A stretch of 64,000 bases of DNA. Origin: Aggregicoccus sp. 17bor-14. Its GTDB lineage: Bacteria; Myxococcota; Myxococcia; Myxococcales; Myxococcaceae. Under the pieces are notes generated by a model. It had not been told where the DNA came from and searched no databases. It was given only the letters and a program-made list of their open reading frames with translations. The position numbers were made by a program, and so were the translations under genes. Of the stretch, positions 12,171 to 50,920 are shown in pieces (the stretch's first letter is position 1; the number at the start of each line of letters is the position of its first letter). Where the stretch lies: assembly GCF_009659535.1 (NCBI RefSeq), contig NZ_VJZZ01000016.1:62001-126000 (forward strand), written 5' to 3'.

Positions 12171-12215
12171 GCGCAGGATGTGCGCAGGCCGTGCCCTGCT
12201 GCGCAGCGCTTTCGC
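12171..12215. promoter_or_regulatory. Paired palindromic activator sites (usp operon)
   Basis: GCGCAGGATGTGCGC at 12171-12185 and GCGCAGCGCTTTCGC at 12201-12215, starts 30 bp apart, match the GCGCAR-N3-YTGCGC family found at nine other control regions in this window. Confidence 0.7.
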
Positions 12216-17339: not shown

Positions 17340-17385
17340 CCGCAAACCCTGCGCCTTCGCGCAAGGCTGAGCGAAAGCGCTGCGC
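17340..17385. promoter_or_regulatory. Paired palindromic activator sites (DUF3108 operon)
   Basis: CCGCAAACCCTGCGC at 17340-17354 and GCGAAAGCGCTGCGC at 17371-17385, starts 31 bp apart. The second is the exact reverse complement of the usp-operon site at 12201-12215. Confidence 0.65.
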
Positions 17386-17416: not shown

Positions 17417-17432
17417 CGGCACGACAAATGAA
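17417..17432 (+). promoter_or_regulatory. Possible sigma-54-type promoter of the DUF3108-YceI-porin operon
   Basis: CGGCACGACAAATGAA has an excellent -24 half but GA instead of GC at -12. It lies 31 bp from the palindrome pair, the same gap as at better promoters, which is the main support. Predicted start near 17443. Confidence 0.45.
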
Positions 17433-17448: not shown

Positions 17449-18237
17449 ATGACGCTCCGCCCCGCCACCCTCCGCCGCGCCCTCCTCGCCGCCGCGATGG
17501 TGCTCGGCGCCCTGGCGCTCGCGGTGGCCCCGGTGGCGAGCGCGCAGCCCGCGGCGGCCGCGCGCCCCTTCGCCGCGGGCGAGGCGCTCCCCTACGACGT
17601 CTCGCTGGGCCGCTTCGGCAAGTGCGGCACCGGCTGGCTGCGCGTGGAGCGCGCGCCCGCGCTGCGCGGCGAGGCGGTGGAGTTGCTGCGCTTCGACTTC
17701 GAGGCGAAGGTGGGCCCCTTCCACGTGCAGCACCACTCGCGCTCGTGGCTGAGCCAGGGGCGCCTCGCCTCGCTGCGCTACTTCATCGACGAGCGCGCCC
17801 CCTTCCAGAAGCCCGTGCAGGACCTGGTGGAGCTGTACCCGGAGCAGCAGCGCTGGGAGGGCGCGCGCGCCCGCGGTGCGAGCACCACGCGCGAGCCGCT
17901 CGACGAGCTCTCCTTCCTCTACGCCGTGCGCACCCTCGCGCTCGAGCCCGGCGCGAGCCTGCGCCTCGACCGGCACTTCGACCCGCGCCGCAACCCCGTC
18001 AGCGTGCGCGTGCTCGGCCGCGAGCGGGTGCAGGTGCCCGCGGGCTCTTTCGATGCGCTCCTCGTGGAGCTCGAGGTGAAGGACCCCCAGCGCTACGGCG
18101 GCCGCGGCGTGCTGCGCATCCACCTCACCGACGACGCGCGCCGCCTGCCGGTGCGCATCGAGTCCGAGGTCCCCATCGCGGGCCACCTCGTGCTCGAGCT
18201 GCAGCGCCTTCCCGTCGCACCCGAAGAGGAGAGCTGA
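17449..18237 (+). CDS. DUF3108 secreted protein
   Basis: A protein of about 262 residues with a signal peptide (hydrophobic run ending near VASAQPAAA) and a DUF3108 domain: beginning LPYDVSLGRFGKCGTGW, with HHSRSWLSQGRLAS and a C-terminal HLTDDARRLPVRIES. The family is periplasmic or lipid-associated with unknown function. Two starts are possible; 17449 is chosen because GGGGGAGGGG precedes it, whereas the ATG at 17428 overlaps the putative -12 element. It is 3 bp before the yceI-like gene, so they form an operon. Confidence 0.82.
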   Translation: MTLRPATLRRALLAAAMVLGALALAVAPVASAQPAAAARPFAAGEALPYDVSLGRFGKCGTGWLRVERAPALRGEAVELLRFDFEAKVGPFHVQHHSRSWLSQGRLASLRYFIDERAPFQKPVQDLVELYPEQQRWEGARARGASTTREPLDELSFLYAVRTLALEPGASLRLDRHFDPRRNPVSVRVLGRERVQVPAGSFDALLVELEVKDPQRYGGRGVLRIHLTDDARRLPVRIESEVPIAGHLVLELQRLPVAPEEES

Positions 18238-26253: not shown

Positions 26254-26307
26254 GCGCAAGCCTTGCGCGGGAGCGCCCGCGCGGGCTCGGGCGCGCAAGC
26301 CTTGCAC
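26254..26307. promoter_or_regulatory. Paired palindromic activator sites (CoA-transferase/nirK)
   Basis: GCGCAAGCCTTGCGC (26254-26268, perfect consensus) and GCGCAAGCCTTGCAC (26293-26307), starts 39 bp apart, the only pair with this wider spacing. They lie in the 327-bp gap between the divergent genes; the remainder of that gap holds the two promoters and no reading frame I support. Confidence 0.72.
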
Positions 26308-26339: not shown

Positions 26340-26355
26340 TGGCATGTGCTTCGCA
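26340..26355 (+). promoter_or_regulatory. Sigma-54-type promoter of nirK
   Basis: TGGCATGTGCTTCGCA, GG-N10-GC, 32 bp after the second palindrome. Predicted start near 26367, giving a leader of about 53 bases to the nirK GTG. Confidence 0.65.
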
Positions 26356-26419: not shown

Positions 26420-27976
26420 GTGAACCTGCCCTCTTCCCGCTCCCTGCTGCTCACCGCCGCTGCCGCTGCGGCGCTCGCCGCTGGCTGCCTCTCTCCGCCC
26501 GACACCTCCTCCGAGGCGCCGGCCACGCCGCAGCGCACCCAGCGCCGCACGCCCAAGGCCGCGCCGCTGCCGGACACGGGGGGCTCGGCGCACGGTGACT
26601 TCGGCCAGCCCGTGGGCCCGCCCATCAAGGCGCTGCTCACGGATGCGCCGCAGGTGCCTCCGCCCATCCACCGCACCAAGCCCGCGAAGGTCATCGTCGA
26701 GCTCGAGGTCATCGAGAAGGTGATGAAGCTCGCGGACGGCGTCGACTACACCTTCTGGACCTTCGGCGGGAAGGTGCCCGGCAAGTTCATCCGCATCCGC
26801 CAGGGCGACACGGTGGAGTTCCACTTGAGCAACAACGCGAGCAGCAAGATGCCGCACAACATCGACCTGCACGCGGTGACGGGCCCGGGCGGCGGTGCGG
26901 CGAGCTCCTTCACCTCTCCCGGCAAGAGCAGCCAGTTCACCTTCAAGGCGCTCAACCAGGGCCTCTTCGTCTACCACTGCGCCACGGCGCCGGTGGGCCT
27001 GCACGTGGCCAACGGCATGTACGGCCTCATCCTGGTGGAGCCGCCCGAGGGTCTGCCGCCGGTGGACCGCGAGCTGTACGTGATGCAGGGCGACTTCTAC
27101 ACCACGGGCAAGCACGGCGAGCGCGGCCTGCAGCCCTTCGACATGGAGAAGGCCATCGACGAGAAGCCCACCTACGTCGTGTTCAACGGCTCGGAGGGGG
27201 CGCTCACCAATTCCGGCGCGCTGAAGGCGAAGGTGGGTGAGAAGGTGCGCATCTTCTTCGGCAACGGTGGCCCCAACCTCACCAGCGGCTTCCACCTCAT
27301 CGGCGAGGTCTTCGACCGCGTCTACACCGAGGGTGGCAGCCGCTATCAGGAGAACGTGCAGACCACCGTGGTGCCGCCGGGCGGCTCTGCCATCGTGGAG
27401 TTCGCCACCGAGGTGCCGGGCAACTACGTGCTCGTGGACCACGCGCTGTTCCGCGCCTTCAACAAGGGCGCGCTGGGCATCATGAGCATCGAGGGCCCGG
27501 ACGCGAAGGACGTGTACTCGGGCAAGCAGGGCGAGGGCGCCGCGCTCGCCAGCGCCGCTCCCGAGGAGCCCGCGGCGCGCCCGGTGGAGGCCGCCGCCAA
27601 GGGGCCGATGACCGCCGAGGCGCTCCGGGCGCAGGGCGAGAAGGTGTTCTCCACCACCTGCGTGAGCTGCCACCAGTCCACGGGCATGGGGCTCCCGGGC
27701 GTGTTCCCGCCGCTCGCCAAGAGCGACTTCCTCATGGCGAACAAGACGCGCTCGGTGGAGATCGTGACGCGCGGCCTCACGGGCGCCGTCACGGTGAACG
27801 GCACCCAGTACAACTCGGTGATGCCCGCGCAGACGCAGCTGAGCGACGAGGACGTGGCCGCGGTGCTCACCTTCGTGCGCAGCAGCTGGGGCAACAAGGG
27901 CGACGCGGTGAGCCCGGTCGAGGTGCAGAAGGTGCGCTCCGCCGGGAGCGCCACGGCCGCCGCCGGGGGGCGCTAG
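26420..27976 (+). CDS. nirK: Copper nitrite reductase NirK with C-terminal cytochrome c domain
   Basis: Reduces nitrite to nitric oxide outside the inner membrane. The 518-residue protein has a lipoprotein signal (AAGC, C23), two cupredoxin domains and a fused cytochrome c. Copper ligands visible: H146 and H151 with catalytic D149 in MPHNIDLHA, type-1 ligands H186? in YHCATAP (C187, H195, M200 completing the site), and type-2 H292 in GFHLIGE. The haem motif is C414-V-S-C417-H418. The GTG start follows CGAGGAG. Fusion to cytochrome c is known in some NirK groups and lets the enzyme take electrons directly. It heads an operon with nirV and sco. Confidence 0.93.
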
Positions 27977-32588: not shown

Positions 32589-32633
32589 GCGAAAAGCCTG
32601 CGTCTCCAGCGGCTTTGCGCGCACGCGCTGCGG
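32589..32633. promoter_or_regulatory. Paired palindromic activator sites (CBS/small membrane protein)
   Basis: GCGAAAAGCCTGCGT (32589-32603) and GCGCACGCGCTGCGG (32619-32633), starts 30 bp apart, centred between two divergent sigma-54-type promoters with gaps of 30 bp on each side. Confidence 0.7.
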
Positions 32634-32663: not shown

Positions 32664-32679
32664 TGGCAGGGCCTTTGCT
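32664..32679 (+). promoter_or_regulatory. Sigma-54-type promoter of the 37-residue protein gene
   Basis: TGGCAGGGCCTTTGCT, essentially consensus, 30 bp after the palindrome pair. Predicted start near 32690, leaving a leader of about 39 bases. Confidence 0.75.
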
Positions 32680-32728: not shown

Positions 32729-32842
32729 ATGCATCAGATGCCGGAGAGCCTGTACGACAACGCCGTCCTCAACATGAGCCCCGTGGTGGCCGCCTACATG
32801 GTGGGCCTGCTCGCGCTGTTGCTCACGTACATGCAGGGCTAG
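32729..32842 (+). CDS. 37-residue single-helix membrane protein
   Basis: Encodes MHQMPESLYDNAVLNMSPV and then one hydrophobic helix (about residues 18-35, ending LLLTYMQG). It is too short for family assignment. Support for being real: a near-consensus sigma-54-type promoter at the right distance, a GGAGA ribosome site, an obvious membrane helix, and symmetrical placement opposite a CBS gene under shared activator sites. Size and topology recall small subunits of terminal oxidases or other small regulatory membrane peptides; no function is claimed. Confidence 0.6.
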   Translation: MHQMPESLYDNAVLNMSPVVAAYMVGLLALLLTYMQG

Positions 32843-37799: not shown

Positions 37800-37845
37800 G
37801 CGCCCGTTTTGCGCTTCTAGAACCGGCGCCGCGCAAAGGTTGCGC
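37800..37845. promoter_or_regulatory. Paired palindromic activator sites (nnrS/hemN)
   Basis: GCGCCCGTTTTGCGC (37800-37814) and GCGCAAAGGTTGCGC (37831-37845, consensus), starts 31 bp apart between divergent nnrS and hemN. Confidence 0.72.
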
Positions 37846-37876: not shown

Positions 37877-37892
37877 TGGCACGGGGATTGGA
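37877..37892 (+). promoter_or_regulatory. Sigma-54-type promoter of hemN
   Basis: TGGCACGGGGATTGGA: perfect -24 half, GG at the -12 position instead of GC; 31 bp after the palindromes. Predicted start near 37903, only about 3 bases before the ATG. Confidence 0.68.
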
Positions 37893-40456: not shown

Positions 40457-40502
40457 GCGCAGCCACTGCGCACCCACAGCCCCGCTCACGCAAACTCTGC
40501 GC
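40457..40502. promoter_or_regulatory. Paired palindromic activator sites (small protein-CBS operon)
   Basis: GCGCAGCCACTGCGC (40457-40471) and ACGCAAACTCTGCGC (40488-40502), starts 31 bp apart, upstream of the coupled membrane-protein/CBS pair. Confidence 0.68.
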
Positions 40503-41772
40503 GCGGGGACGGGGGCTCCTGCCCCTCGGGAGGGGAGACTGCAACCGCCCTGCCACGCGCCCAGGGCAGCGCGAGCGCGAAGCCCGCGAGCACCACCCCG
40601 GCGCCACCGGCCGCCGCGAGCACCAGCCCCGCGCGCAGCAGCTGCGTGCCGAAGCCGAGCAGCCCCTGCATCCCTGCACCCGTGAGCGCGAGCCCCGCGG
40701 CCATCAGCGCGAGCCCCGCGTGGTGCAGGTGCAGCGCGCCGGGGCGCCGCCCCAGCTGCAGCAGCAGGGGGAGCAGGAGCCCGCCCGTCACCACGCCCAG
40801 CAGGAGCACGTGCAGGTAGAGGATGGCGGGGTGGTGCAGCCGCGTCGCCCACTCGGAGAGCCCCAGCGCGCCGGCCGCCTCCATGCCGCCCTCGAGCAGC
40901 GCCCACAGCGCGACCCAGCGCAGCAGCCCGCGCAGCGAGCCCTGCGTGGAGCGCGAGGCGCGCCAGAGGGTGCGCACCCAGAGGAAGCCCGGGTAGGCGA
41001 GCGCGAGCGCCGCCGCGCGCGCCGCCCACCCCAGCGCACCGCTGCTCCCGCCCGGCACGCCGAGCGGGAAGGTGAGCCAGGCGAGCAGCACCTTCCAGCG
41101 CAGCAAGCGGCGCAGCGGCGCCTCCTCGAAGCGCACGCCGAGCTCCGCGGCGTGCAGCACCAGCAGCCCCATCAGCCCGAGCACGAAGAAGCCCGCGAAG
41201 CAGTGCAGGAAGGCGAAGACGGCGAGCTGGCCCAGGTGCGCGTCCTTCACGTGCGCCGCGAGCAGCACCACGCGCCCGACGGCACCGAGCATCGCGAGCA
41301 CGAGGTAGGCGAGCGCGCCGCGCAGGAAGCCGTACGCCACGCCCGTGCGCCCGCGCAGCCGCAGCGCGAGGCGGGCCGCGGCGTAGAGCCACACGAAGAG
41401 CGAGCTCGCCGAGACGATGACGCCCGGCCGCCCGTACCCGGAGTGCAGGAAGGCGACGAAGGTCGCGAGCGAGACGAGGTGGATGAGGGTGAGGGCCGCG
41501 CGGTCCGCGCGCGCGAGCGGGGCGCCGGGCGCCCCGAGGCGCTCGAAGGCGAGCGCGAAGAGGGCGAGCCCCACCCAGCCGAAGTACAGCGTGTGCGAGT
41601 GCGCGTGCAGCGCGTTGCCGAAGGGCAGCCACGCGAGCAGGGGGCTCACGAAGGCGAGGCGCAGCAGGAGCCCCAGCGAGGTGGCGAGCAGGTAGTAGCC
41701 GAGCGCGAGGCGCAGGTAGCCGCGCGGCTCGGCGGGGCTGAAGAGGGAGCGGAGGAGCGCGCGCACGGCCAT
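40486..41772 (-). CDS. Polytopic membrane protein, NnrS/haem-copper-oxidase-like
   Basis: A 428-residue protein with about twelve helices. Histidines cluster in helices as in haem-binding membrane proteins: LHAHSHTLYFGWVGLALFA near the N-terminus, VFAFLHCFAGFF, MGLLVLHAAELG, and HHPAILYLHVLLLG late in the chain. The overall look is that of NnrS or a distant oxidase subunit I, but I cannot assign a family firmly. Its ATG overlaps the stop of a CBS gene, and the pair is divergent from nitric oxide reductase, suggesting a role in NO or oxygen handling. Confidence 0.65.
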   Translation of the reverse strand: MAVRALLRSLFSPAEPRGYLRLALGYYLLATSLGLLLRLAFVSPLLAWLPFGNALHAHSHTLYFGWVGLALFALAFERLGAPGAPLARADRAALTLIHLVSLATFVAFLHSGYGRPGVIVSASSLFVWLYAAARLALRLRGRTGVAYGFLRGALAYLVLAMLGAVGRVVLLAAHVKDAHLGQLAVFAFLHCFAGFFVLGLMGLLVLHAAELGVRFEEAPLRRLLRWKVLLAWLTFPLGVPGGSSGALGWAARAAALALAYPGFLWVRTLWRASRSTQGSLRGLLRWVALWALLEGGMEAAGALGLSEWATRLHHPAILYLHVLLLGVVTGGLLLPLLLQLGRRPGALHLHHAGLALMAAGLALTGAGMQGLLGFGTQLLRAGLVLAAAGGAGVVLAGFALALPWARGRAVAVSPPEGQEPPSPRAEFA

Positions 41773-42203
41773 CAGCACTCGTACTCCGCCGCCTCGCTGC
41801 GCCGGTCGAGCCCGACCACCAGCTCGCCGCAGAAGCGCACCAGGTCCGACTCGGTGACGATGCCCACCAGGCTCCCCGCGGCGTCGACGACGGGCAGGCA
41901 GCCGAACTTGTTCTTCAGCATCAGCTCGAGCGCCTCGCGCAGCGAGGTCTCCGGGCGCACGGTCCTCACGTCGCGGGTCATCGCGTCGATCGCCCACACG
42001 GCGGGCTCGGTCGCCGCGCCGCCTCCGCGCGCGAGCGCCGCGAGCAGGTCGCGGTGGGTGACCAGGCCCACCAGCCGCCCGCCGTCCACCACCGGCAGGT
42101 GGCGCACGCGGCCGCGGCGCAGCAGCGCCTCCACGCGGCGCAGGTTCTCCATCGGCCGCAGGGTGATGACATCGCGGGTCATGAGGTCTTGAACCTGCAG
42201 CAT
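41772..42203 (-). CDS. Tandem CBS-domain protein
   Basis: A 143-residue protein of two CBS domains (LMTRDVITLRPMENL with RVRHLPVVDGGRLVGLVT, then AMTRDVRTVRPETSL with KFGCLPVVDAAGSLVGIVT). It is the first gene of an operon with the NnrS-like membrane protein, coupled by a TGATG overlap. Its sigma-54-type promoter at 42241 and the activator pair are shared with the divergent qNor gene. Confidence 0.92.
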   Translation of the reverse strand: MLQVQDLMTRDVITLRPMENLRRVEALLRRGRVRHLPVVDGGRLVGLVTHRDLLAALARGGGAATEPAVWAIDAMTRDVRTVRPETSLREALELMLKNKFGCLPVVDAAGSLVGIVTESDLVRFCGELVVGLDRRSEAAEYEC

Positions 42204-42240: not shown

Positions 42241-42256
42241 TGCATCCGCAGGGCCA
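42241..42256 (-). promoter_or_regulatory. Sigma-54-type promoter of the CBS/NnrS-like operon
   Basis: Minus-strand TGGCCCTGCGGATGCA, nearly the same sequence as the hpf promoter at 50499. It is 31 bp from the palindrome pair; predicted start near 42230. Confidence 0.7.
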
Positions 42257-42287
42257 GCGCATCGGCCGAGGCTCCAGGTCCCGTGGG

Positions 42288-42333
42288 GCGCAGCGGCTGC
42301 GCCCGGTGGCCGCAACGCGCGCAGGGATTGCGC
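42288..42333. promoter_or_regulatory. Paired palindromic activator sites (CBS operon/qNor)
   Basis: GCGCAGCGGCTGCGC (42288-42302) and GCGCAGGGATTGCGC (42319-42333), starts 31 bp apart, between divergent promoters with gaps of 31 and 32 bp. Confidence 0.75.
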
Positions 42334-42365
42334 GCCGCACCCCGTGCCGCACCCGTGGCGCGCTC

Positions 42366-42381
42366 CGGTACGCCCGATGCA
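42366..42381 (+). promoter_or_regulatory. Sigma-54-type promoter of the nitric oxide reductase gene
   Basis: CGGTACGCCCGATGCA, GG-N10-GC, 32 bp from the palindromes. Predicted start near 42392; the leader of about 108 bases to the GTG contains no other recognisable element. Confidence 0.65.
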
Positions 42382-42500: not shown

Positions 42501-44765
42501 GTGAGAAAGCTGTGGATGGCCTTCGCGGCCGTGCTGTTGGCTTCGTTCTCCGTGCTGGGCTGGGTGGGCCTGCGCATCTACCAGCAGGCCCCACCGGTGC
42601 CCGAGCACGTGGTCACCACCGAGGGCCGCACGCTCTTCGGCCCTGGCGAGCTGCAGGCGGGCCAGAACGTGTGGCAGTCCCTGGGCGGCATGGAGGTGGG
42701 CAGCATCTGGGGCCACGGCAGCTACGTGGCGCCGGACTGGACGGCGGACTGGCTGCACCGCGAGTCGCTCTTCATCCTGCAGGCGTGGGCGCGCGAGGAC
42801 CACGGCGCGGACTACGACACGCTGCCCGCCCCGCAGCAGGCCGCGCTGCAGCGGCGGCTGCAGGAGCTGATGCGCAAGAACACCTATGACCCGGCCACCG
42901 GTACGCTGACGCTCGCGCCGGTGCGCGCGCGCGCCTTCGAGGCGAACCTCGCCTACTACAGCGACGTGTTCGGCCGCGGGCGCGACGCGTACGCGATGCC
43001 CGCGGGCACGCTGAGCGACCCCGCGCAGCTGCGCCTGCTCTCGGGCTTCTTCTTCTGGAGCAGCTGGGCCGCGTCCACCGAGCGCCCCGGCGACACCATC
43101 AGCTACACCAACAACTGGCCGCACGAGGCGCTGGTGGGCAACGTGCCCTCGGGCGACACGGTGGTGTGGACGGGCGTGAGCATCATCGTGCTGCTCGCGG
43201 GCCTGGGCGCCATGGCCTTCTATTACGCCACGCGGCCGAAGGAGGAGTTGCACGGCGACGTGCCCGCGCACGACCCGCTGCTCTCCGCGCGCGCCACGCC
43301 CTCGCAGCGCGCGGTGGTGAAGTACTTCTGGGTGGTGAGCGGGCTGCTGCTCCTGCAGATCATCCTGGGCGTGGTGACGGCGCACTACGGAGTGGAGGGC
43401 GGCGCCTTCTATGGCTTCCCGCTCGCCGAGTACCTGCCCTACGTGGTGACCCGCACCTGGCACACGCAGCTGGGCATCTTCTGGATTGCGACCGCGTGGC
43501 TCGCGGCGGGGCTCTACATCGGCCCGGCGGTGGGCGGCGAGGAGCCGCGCTACCAGCGCGCCGGCGTCAACGTGCTCTTCGGCGCGCTGCTGGTGGTGGT
43601 GCTCGGCAGCATGGCGGGCCAGTGGCTCAGCGTGATGCACAAGCTGGGCGTGGGCGACCTCTGGTTCTACTTCGGCCACAGCGGCTACGAGTACATCGAC
43701 CTGGGGCGCGCCTTCCAGATTGCCTTGCTGGTGGGGCTCTTCCTCTGGCTCTTCCTCGTGGCGCGCGCCATCTGGCCCGCGCTCAAGCGCAAGGACGAGC
43801 AGCGCACGGTGCTCACGCTCTTCCTCATCTCCTCCTTCGCCATCGCGGGCTTCTACGGCGCGGCGCTGGGGGCGGGGCGGCACACCAACCTCGCCGTCGC
43901 AGAGTACTGGCGCTGGTGGGTGGTGCACCTGTGGGTGGAGGGCTTCTTCGAGGTCTTCGCCACGGTGGTCATCGCCTTCCTCTTCGCGCGCCTCAAGCTG
44001 CTCTCCCTGCGCACGGCCGGCGAGGCCACGGTGCTCAGCGCCACCATCTTCCTCGCGGGCGGCGTCATCGGCACGCTGCACCACCTGTACTTCTCCGGCA
44101 CGCCCACGGTGGTGCTCGCGCTGGGCTCGGTGTTCAGCGCGCTCGAGGTCGTGCCGCTGCTCTTCGTGGGCTACGAGGCCTGGCACAACTACCAGCTCAG
44201 CCACGCGAAGCCCTGGGTGCGCAACTACAAGTGGCCCATCTACTTCTTCATCTCGGTGGCCTTCTGGAACCTGGTGGGCGCGGGGCTCTTCGGCTTCATG
44301 ATCAACCCGCCCATCGCGCTCTATTACATGCAGGGGCTCAACACGACGCCGGTACACGGCCACGCCGCGCTCTTCGGCGTGTACGGGATGCTGGGCATCG
44401 GGCTGATGCTCTTCTGCCTGCGCGCCATGGACCCGCGCCTGGTCTGGAAGGAGCGGCTGGTGCGCTTCGCCTTCTGGTCCATCAACGGCGGCCTGATGAT
44501 CATGGTGGTGGGCAGCCTGCTGCCGGTGGGCCTGCTGCAGACCTGGGCCTCGGTGGAGCACGGCTACTGGTACGCGCGCAGCGCCGAGTTCCTCCAGACG
44601 CCGCTGATGAACACGCTGCGCTGGCTGCGCGTGCCCGGTGACTCGCTCTTCGCGCTGGGCGCCATCGCGCTGGTGCTCTTCGTGCTGCAGCTGGGCCGCG
44701 CCCGTCCGGTGGCCCGCGCGGAGCAGCGCGAGGGCGTCGTGCCCGCGCCCAGCCTCGAGCCGTAG
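42501..44765 (+). CDS. norZ: Quinol-dependent nitric oxide reductase (qNor)
   Basis: Reduces nitric oxide to nitrous oxide using quinol. The 754-residue single chain has the qNor layout: an N-terminal helix, a periplasmic domain of about 200 residues (GPGELQAGQNVWQSLGGMEVGSIWGHGSYVAPDW, split here as seen in the family), then a twelve-helix haem-copper-type core with haem and iron ligands in TRTWHTQLGIFW, WWVVHLWVEGFFE, GTLHHLYFSG and TPVHGHAALFGVYGML. GTG start with GAGAGGAG upstream. No separate cytochrome c subunit gene is present. Together with nirK it gives nitrite to nitrous oxide. Confidence 0.95.
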   Translation: MRKLWMAFAAVLLASFSVLGWVGLRIYQQAPPVPEHVVTTEGRTLFGPGELQAGQNVWQSLGGMEVGSIWGHGSYVAPDWTADWLHRESLFILQAWAREDHGADYDTLPAPQQAALQRRLQELMRKNTYDPATGTLTLAPVRARAFEANLAYYSDVFGRGRDAYAMPAGTLSDPAQLRLLSGFFFWSSWAASTERPGDTISYTNNWPHEALVGNVPSGDTVVWTGVSIIVLLAGLGAMAFYYATRPKEELHGDVPAHDPLLSARATPSQRAVVKYFWVVSGLLLLQIILGVVTAHYGVEGGAFYGFPLAEYLPYVVTRTWHTQLGIFWIATAWLAAGLYIGPAVGGEEPRYQRAGVNVLFGALLVVVLGSMAGQWLSVMHKLGVGDLWFYFGHSGYEYIDLGRAFQIALLVGLFLWLFLVARAIWPALKRKDEQRTVLTLFLISSFAIAGFYGAALGAGRHTNLAVAEYWRWWVVHLWVEGFFEVFATVVIAFLFARLKLLSLRTAGEATVLSATIFLAGGVIGTLHHLYFSGTPTVVLALGSVFSALEVVPLLFVGYEAWHNYQLSHAKPWVRNYKWPIYFFISVAFWNLVGAGLFGFMINPPIALYYMQGLNTTPVHGHAALFGVYGMLGIGLMLFCLRAMDPRLVWKERLVRFAFWSINGGLMIMVVGSLLPVGLLQTWASVEHGYWYARSAEFLQTPLMNTLRWLRVPGDSLFALGAIALVLFVLQLGRARPVARAEQREGVVPAPSLEP

Positions 44766-48457: not shown

Positions 48458-48503
48458 GCGCAGCGCTTGCGCGGGCGCGGGCCGCGGCGCGCAGGGTTTG
48501 CGG
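48458..48503. promoter_or_regulatory. Paired palindromic activator sites (hemerythrin operon/TraR-like)
   Basis: GCGCAGCGCTTGCGC (48458-48472) and GCGCAGGGTTTGCGG (48489-48503), starts 31 bp apart, between divergent promoters with gaps of 32 and 31 bp. Confidence 0.75.
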
Positions 48504-48534: not shown

Positions 48535-48550
48535 GGGCACGCTTCGTGAA
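48535..48550 (+). promoter_or_regulatory. Possible sigma-54-type promoter of the TraR/DksA-like gene
   Basis: GGGCACGCTTCGTGAA: good -24 half, GA rather than GC at -12, as at 17417. Spacing from the palindromes is standard. Predicted start near 48561, about 3 bases before the ATG. Confidence 0.45.
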
Positions 48551-48975: not shown

Positions 48976-50367
<1,392 letters not shown>

Positions 50368-50379
50368 GCCGCACCGGTG

Positions 50380-50423
50380 GCGCAAGGGTTACGCGCTTCC
50401 CACCGGGTGCGAAACGCCTGCGT
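50380..50423. promoter_or_regulatory. Paired palindromic activator sites (hpf)
   Basis: GCGCAAGGGTTACGC (50380-50394) and GCGAAACGCCTGCGT (50409-50423), starts 29 bp apart, beginning 13 bp after the response-regulator stop. Confidence 0.68.
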
Positions 50424-50498: not shown

Positions 50499-50514
50499 TG
50501 GCCCTCGGGATGCA
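50499..50514 (+). promoter_or_regulatory. Sigma-54-type promoter of the hibernation-factor gene
   Basis: TGGCCCTCGGGATGCA, GG-N10-GC; 75 bp from the palindromes, further than at most loci. Predicted start near 50525. Confidence 0.6.
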
Positions 50515-50590: not shown

Positions 50591-50920
50591 ATGAACCAGC
50601 CGCTGCAGATCACCTTCCGTGGGATGGCGCCGAGCGAGGCCGTGAGGGAGCGCATCGAGGAGTACGCAGAGAAGCTGGAGCAGTTCTGCGACCGCATCCT
50701 GACCTGCAGGGTGGTCGTGGAGGAGCCGCACCGCAGCCATCAGCAGGGCAACCACTTCCACGTGCGCGTGGCCATGGCGGTGCCCGGCCGCAACATCGTG
50801 GTGGACCGCGCGCCGGCGGACGACGCGCTCTTCGAGGACCCGTACGCCACCCTGCACGAGGCCTTCGACGCCGCCCGCCGCAAGCTGCAGGAGTACACCC
50901 GCACCGCGCGCCGTCACTAG
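50591..50920 (+). CDS. hpf: HPF/RaiA-type ribosome-associated protein
   Basis: A 109-residue protein with the HPF/RaiA fold: LQITFRGMAPSEAVRERIEEYAEKLEQF, a central FHVRVAMAVPGRNIVVDR strand pair and DPYATLHEAFDAARRKLQEY helix. Such proteins inactivate or dimerise ribosomes in starvation. It is the short form, lacking the C-terminal domain of long HPF. The sequence is somewhat diverged, and a stand-alone role with USP and CBS proteins in dormancy is inferred from the shared promoter grammar. Confidence 0.85.
   Translation: MNQPLQITFRGMAPSEAVRERIEEYAEKLEQFCDRILTCRVVVEEPHRSHQQGNHFHVRVAMAVPGRNIVVDRAPADDALFEDPYATLHEAFDAARRKLQEYTRTARRH

Follow-up and report, generated by a model that had tools for sequence, protein, structure and literature searches.

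At positions 42241-42381 of the window (the whole stretch of DNA analysed: 64 kb at 73% GC, C16:62001-126000, from a genome of 6.9 Mb), two GCGCA-N5-TGCGC palindromes lie between the divergent genes for a CBS-domain protein and a quinol-dependent nitric oxide reductase (qNor), with a sigma-54 element on each side. The region reads as sigma-54 element (-), 31 bp, site, 16 bp, site, 32 bp, sigma-54 element (+), and its ends coincide exactly with the outer edges of the two sigma-54 elements; the coordinates confirm the initial annotation, in which paired palindromes 31 bp apart stand 31 and 32 bp from their promoters. The pair, 42288/42319, is the only mismatch-free one at 29-31 bp spacing in the genome. 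Its palindromes are predicted sites of NmpR, the regulator discussed below, and the unit consists of the following features:

41772-42203 (-): CBS-domain protein (by translation), divergent partner of qNor; CBS genes also neighbour pairs in other genomes
42256-42241 (-): sigma-54 -24/-12 element TGGCCCTGCGGATGCA, 12.8 bits, 31 bp from the pair, facing the CBS-domain gene
42288-42302: predicted NmpR site GCGCAGCGGCTGCGC, perfect GCGCA-N5-TGCGC
42319-42333: predicted NmpR site GCGCAGGGATTGCGC, perfect GCGCA-N5-TGCGC, 31 bp from its partner site
42366-42381 (+): sigma-54 element CGGTACGCCCGATGCA, 12.0 bits, 32 bp from the pair, facing the qNor gene
42501-44765 (+): qNor, with a NorB cytochrome c-like domain and COX1

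Nine pairs of such palindromes are present in the window, and together they face genes for a universal stress protein, a DUF3108 protein, NirK, CBS proteins, NnrS, HemN, qNor, a hemerythrin, DksA/TraR-NmpR, and a ribosome hibernation factor. The remaining eight, with two genes referred to below, are:

12171-12215: predicted NmpR pair (30 bp); sigma-54 element 12138-12123 (-), gap 32 bp; faces the universal stress protein gene 12089-11649
17340-17385: predicted NmpR pair (31 bp); sigma-54 element 17417-17432 (+), gap 31 bp; before the DUF3108 gene at 17449
26254-26307: predicted NmpR pair (39 bp) between an acetyl-CoA hydrolase/transferase gene and nirK; sigma-54 elements 26340-26355 (+), gap 32 bp, and 26155-26140 (-), gap 98 bp
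26420-27976 (+): nirK, copper nitrite reductase with a C-terminal cytochrome c domain (TIGR02376, 364 bits, cut-off 296)
32589-32633: predicted NmpR pair (30 bp), CBS gene to the left and 37-aa membrane peptide to the right; symmetric sigma-54 elements 32558-32543 (-) and 32664-32679 (+), both gap 30 bp
37800-37845: predicted NmpR pair (31 bp) between nnrS (-) and hemN (+); sigma-54 elements 37877-37892 (+), gap 31 bp, and 37755-37740 (-), gap 44 bp
40457-40502: predicted NmpR pair (31 bp); no outward sigma-54 element at 30-32 bp
48458-48503: predicted NmpR pair (31 bp) between the hemerythrin and DksA/TraR-nmpR genes; sigma-54 element 48425-48410 (-) and a weaker one, 48535-48550 (+)
48976-50367 (+): NmpR orthologue, with receiver (Asp54), sigma-54 AAA+ (GAFTGA), and Fis-type HTH domains
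50380-50423: weaker predicted NmpR pair (29 bp) upstream of the ribosome hibernation factor gene at 50591; sigma-54 element 50499-50514 (+), gap 75 bp

Start-to-start spacings, in window order, are 30, 31, 39, 30, 31, 31, 31, 31, and 29 bp, matching the list drawn up earlier, and correspond to inter-site gaps of 14-16 nt at eight pairs and 24 nt at nirK. When the window was scored outward from each pair, nine sigma-54 elements were recovered at a palindrome-to-promoter gap of 30-32 bp, as previously described, each of at least 8.4 bits by an approximate matrix, on which all sigma-54 scores depend; a tenth, weaker element (48535-48550, 6.8 bits) has a gap of 31 bp. Outward elements accompany eight of the nine pairs, seven at 30-32 bp and one at 75 bp, such that two pairs are without a promoter at 30-32 bp, namely 50380/50409 (the one at 75 bp) and 40457/40488, for which outward scoring found no element. 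The initial annotation had also placed the pair midway in five divergent regions. This holds in three, where promoters lie at 30-32 bp on both sides, but not at nirK or NnrS/hemN, where the left-hand element stands at 98 and 44 bp, respectively. The evidence supports its reading of two activator dimers on one DNA face that serve the flanking promoters, here of the sigma-54 type, to one side or to both.

Several further features of the cluster deserve mention. Pair 40457/40488 has on its far side the window's best match to the sigma-54 consensus (40555-40540, -), an arrangement that would place the enhancer within the transcribed leader. The -12 element TGAA in place of TGCA recurs in many NmpR-associated promoters, for example CGGCACGCATCCTGAA, and is seen at L151, L153, L155, L208, L216, L223, and window 17417-17432. 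The gene for the 37-aa membrane peptide (32729-32842, +) stands alone behind a strong predicted NmpR/sigma-54 promoter, and two short peptides resembling it are found at L111:2641 and L111:3289. A DDE transposase gene (PF01609/PF13808; 29445-30602, -) lies inside the cluster, and a gene for a DksA/TraR protein, faced by the 48458 pair, lies upstream of nmpR. Just upstream of the window, the ccoI-cbb3 operon is preceded, like its counterpart in Myxococcus xanthus, by a pair (L111:10871-10915; C16:60871) 1.1 kb before the window start, where the approximate matrix gave no convincing sigma-54 element; in M. xanthus, ccoI is NmpR-dependent (PMC11841059).

Given that the window is 73% GC, GCGC-rich DNA might be supposed to yield palindromes and regular spacings by chance, and a search of the own genome at up to three mismatches indeed returns 65 control matches beside 166 matches, a background too noisy for use, so that regulon members are listed at up to two mismatches only. 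At higher stringency, this explanation becomes scarcely credible. Five pairs in the window have at most one mismatch and a spacing of 29-31 bp, whereas 200 dinucleotide shuffles contain 0.005 on average and never more than one; at up to two mismatches, six are observed against 0.1 in such shuffles. Counting in shuffled sequence had been proposed in the initial annotation, and the clear excess refutes a composition artefact and vindicates its view that the regularity is hard to ascribe to base composition alone. Across the order, with the own genome left out, 61 of the 69 strict pairs examined (outer half-sites perfect, spacing 29-31 bp) are intergenic, which counts against chance composition as well. 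For the same reason, an artefact of coding sequence was considered and rejected, the eight intragenic pairs having no strong sigma-54 neighbour. Genome-wide, the matches listed at up to two mismatches comprise 15 places off the window's contig and five inside the window, a listing that misses window pair 48458/48489. Since all pairs with at most one mismatch but one lie inside the window, the latter represents a regulon cluster. The one such pair off the window's contig, C2:89984-90028 (L114), precedes an alternative-oxidase-like gene (PF01786) and has a strong sigma-54 element at a gap of 42 bp.

A system with these properties has been described in M. xanthus DK1622, where an oxygen-responsive phosphorelay, NmpRSTU, acts through the NtrC-like regulator NmpR (McAllister et al. 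2025, PMC11841059). NmpR was shown to bind GCGCA-N5-TGCGC, and the promoters bound by it carry two such sites, as a rule separated by 14-15 nt (29-30 bp between starts); exceptions are 24 nt at nmpU and 5 nt at pilR (PMC11841059). Expression of mxan_4236, which is induced by hypoxia in an NmpR-dependent manner, depends on both sites as well as on the sigma-54 element; the dependence on the two sites (S1/S2), sigma-54, and NmpR was established by EMSA and lacZ reporters, and the protoglobin kinase NmpU is the proposed oxygen sensor (PMC11841059).

The activator encoded at 48976-50367 is identified as NmpR because of the synteny of its orthologues. In two Corallococcus genomes (L024, L026), the orthologue, 88-89% identical, is directly followed by nmpU, nmpT, and nmpS, which encode a protoglobin kinase, a double receiver, and a receiver-kinase, respectively. 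In Pyxidicoccus (L027), its neighbours are a CBS gene with a 29-bp pair on one side and convergent nmpSTU on the other, as laid out for mxan_4236-4246 (PMC11841059). The HTH region is nearly invariant among four aligned NmpR proteins. The organism's own nmpU-T-S genes reside on another contig (C18:113,665-116,643; L110:8665-11644); the globin domain of its NmpU is closest to the solved globin of AfGcHK (5ohe, E 1.6e-61), and in its nmpU promoter, two perfect sites are spaced at 19 bp, with a sigma-54 element at a gap of 42 bp. The initial annotation had left the activator behind the paired palindromes unnamed; on these grounds, it is in all likelihood NmpR, encoded in the same window.

The association between pairs and NmpR was surveyed in 145 genomes of the order, 111 with an NmpR orthologue and 34 without, using the strict pattern and, as a control, its reverse. 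The 111 NmpR-positive genomes contain 134 strict pairs against 34 control matches, and the 34 NmpR-negative genomes 10 against 8 (Mann-Whitney p = 4e-5, the genomes not being independent). Pairs are thus in excess across the order only where NmpR is present. The relationship is also evident within genera: in genus g25, the pair counts are 4, 3, and 3 in three NmpR-positive genomes and zero in each of four NmpR-negative genomes, and in genus g24, the four NmpR-negative genomes have zero pairs. Two genomes negative by threshold, G064 and G005, are exceptions with three strict pairs each. In the Anaeromyxobacter-like family f5, the strict pattern finds only two pairs in 22 NmpR-positive genomes, and loss of the motif was considered and rejected, as imperfect pairs are found at the nmpR loci. 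In these clusters (L242-L248), imperfect pairs occur at 19, 28-30, and 40 bp, several of them upstream of nmpR or a DksA/TraR-like gene, and are missed by the strict pattern.

Dozens of sigma-54 activators are encoded in the genome, and one of them other than NmpR could bind the palindromes, with NmpR a bystander in the window; in this respect, one strict pair of G064 lies next to a gene whose product, an activator, shares 50% identity with NmpR. Such an arrangement is improbable, however, because the pairs track the presence of NmpR across and within genera, nmpR and nmpU themselves have pairs in several genera, and the HTH is identical over long stretches in the four aligned NmpR proteins, and the exact motif and spacing have been demonstrated by experiment for the M. 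xanthus orthologue (PMC11841059). Each pair is best regarded, with high confidence, as a predicted two-dimer enhancer for the NmpR encoded at 48976-50367.

Promoter distance is constrained order-wide as well. De-duplicated, the 69 strict pairs come to 47, for which outward scoring gives 38 sigma-54 elements at or above 10 bits. Of these, 18 lie at a gap of 29-34 bp, against 0.16 expected from the background rate, and the remaining strong elements cluster at gaps of 40-45, 51-53, and 58-66 bp. The farther promoter classes likely step out by about one helical turn; a phase test of the distant elements after de-duplication (n=17) lends modest support, with p = 0.02 and a best period of ~10 bp. 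Conservation in relatives, another check proposed in the initial annotation, was borne out, the pair and the promoter gap being kept, for example, at qNor orthologues of 61-63% identity in two other genera, where the gap is 32-33 bp in most and 43 bp in three. Inter-site spacing appears graded too: a scan of 40 genomes, which includes background and in which the value 42 may be partly coding, gives clusters near 19-21, 27-31, and 39-42 bp. Given these clusters, the spacing of 39 bp at nirK, correct as a value, fits the next spacing class and is not the odd exception it was first taken for. Order-wide, eight further pairs, some mutually orthologous, have promoters at 29-34 bp on both sides, from which we infer that one pair may serve both flanking promoters at once.

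With nirK and qNor among the genes faced, it could be argued that a CRP/FNR-type or other sigma-70 regulator of denitrification (DNR/NNR-like) uses the palindromes as its operators and that the sigma-54 matches are coincidental, as FNR-family regulators commonly control nirK and qNor in other bacteria. This is very unlikely, considering that the motif is not of the FNR TTGAT-N4-ATCAA type and that strong sigma-54 elements occur at one fixed gap in more than 100-fold excess. An FNR/DNR-type TTGAT-N4-ATCAA-like site at a sigma-70 promoter was not encountered, the sites being GCGCA-N5-TGCGC at sigma-54 elements. Returning to NmpR, the recurrent neighbours of pairs in other genera include nmpR, nmpU, hemN, and genes for universal stress, CBS, ribosome hibernation, NnrS, hemerythrin, and NirK-like proteins. 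Pairs are carried by qNor in several genera, but of 13 further nirK orthologues that were scored, a single one (in G101) has a clear pair with a promoter, and control of nirK by NmpR is thus not general. This difference between qNor and nirK suggests that denitrification came under such control by repeated recruitment and not through an ancestral rule. On balance, we consider it probable that in nirK/qNor-carrying myxobacteria, denitrification steps are switched on by the oxygen-sensing protoglobin phosphorelay NmpRSTU, and not by an FNR/DNR- or NorR-type regulator, through rigid, phased, symmetric two-way sigma-54 enhancers with classes one turn apart, order-wide.

The sites, their spacing, the promoter distance, the NmpR and NmpUTS orthologues, their co-occurrence, and their conservation can be read from the DNA itself, and they suggest the following model. 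With oxygen plentiful, the protoglobin kinase NmpU would keep the hybrid kinase NmpS off, and once oxygen falls, NmpS would phosphorylate NmpR, both steps being adopted from the M. xanthus model. Two NmpR dimers would then bind the two sites, which are separated by about three helical turns, oligomerise along the same face of the DNA, and make contact with the sigma-54 RNA polymerase at a -24/-12 element that starts 30-32 bp beyond the nearer site. Because the palindrome and the pair are symmetric, one pair could serve promoters on both sides. The predicted regulon would join micro-oxic respiration (ccoI-cbb3), oxygen-free haem synthesis (hemN), ribosome hibernation, stress proteins, and denitrification (nirK, qNor, nnrS). 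We infer that in this organism NmpR binds the sites, responds to oxygen, uses pairs bidirectionally, and induces the denitrification genes.

The regulator NmpR, its site, and its preferred spacing are already known from M. xanthus (PMC11841059). The present analysis adds a predicted extension to the reduction of nitrite and nitric oxide, a promoter distance that is fixed and probably graded by helical turns, and conservation throughout the order, together with symmetric pairs having promoters on both sides; searches of open-access papers on NmpR and on myxobacterial denitrification turned up none that connects the two. The 2025 paper leaves open which targets NmpR has outside M. xanthus (PMC11841059), and a first answer is given here, which includes degenerate pairs beside nmpR and nearby genes in the Anaeromyxobacter-like family. 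A regulator has been identified behind a strikingly regular promoter grammar, and the published oxygen regulon of an obligate aerobe is extended to genes of nitrite and nitric oxide reduction. Moreover, many aligned natural promoters are now usable to measure how strict activator-promoter phasing is at sigma-54 promoters.

Similar arrangements are found in other systems. NorR activates the nitric oxide reductase gene in an NO-responsive and sigma-54-dependent manner, sensing NO directly via a GAF domain and binding GT-N7-AC sites. The likeness lies in the sigma-54-dependent activation of a nitric oxide reductase gene; the activator of the window, in contrast, belongs to an oxygen phosphorelay, and domain analysis of 48976-50367 found a receiver domain and no GAF domain. 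At enteric glnA, two dyad sites for NtrC about three turns apart, at about -108 and -140, cooperate to activate sigma-54 transcription in response to a nitrogen signal. Paired dyad sites at this distance and sigma-54 activation are common to both cases, whereas the half-site differs, the glnA sites lie further upstream, and the signal is nitrogen rather than oxygen. The LuxO-qrr enhancers of Vibrio, whose distances cluster in similar steps of ~11 bp, likewise combine an NtrC-like activator, tandem sites, and sigma-54 promoters, but the regulator and motif differ from those of NmpR, and looping spans ~80-120 bp compared with ~62 bp here (pair centre to promoter centre, main class) (PMC4740811). 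The closest parallel is the M. xanthus NmpR regulon, which has in common with the window the site, the two-site spacing, sigma-54 promoters, and an orthologous regulator with NmpSTU, and shares as targets a CBS protein, a universal stress protein, ccoI-cbb3, nmpR, and nmpU (PMC11841059). The available text of that paper makes no mention of nitrogen oxides or of two-way use of a pair, and beyond the regulon it describes are nirK, the quinol NO reductase gene, nnrS, hemN, and the genes for hemerythrin and the ribosome hibernation factor (PMC11841059). It also sets only a broad limit (<500 bp) on the sigma-54 distance (PMC11841059), where the promoters described here keep a fixed short gap.
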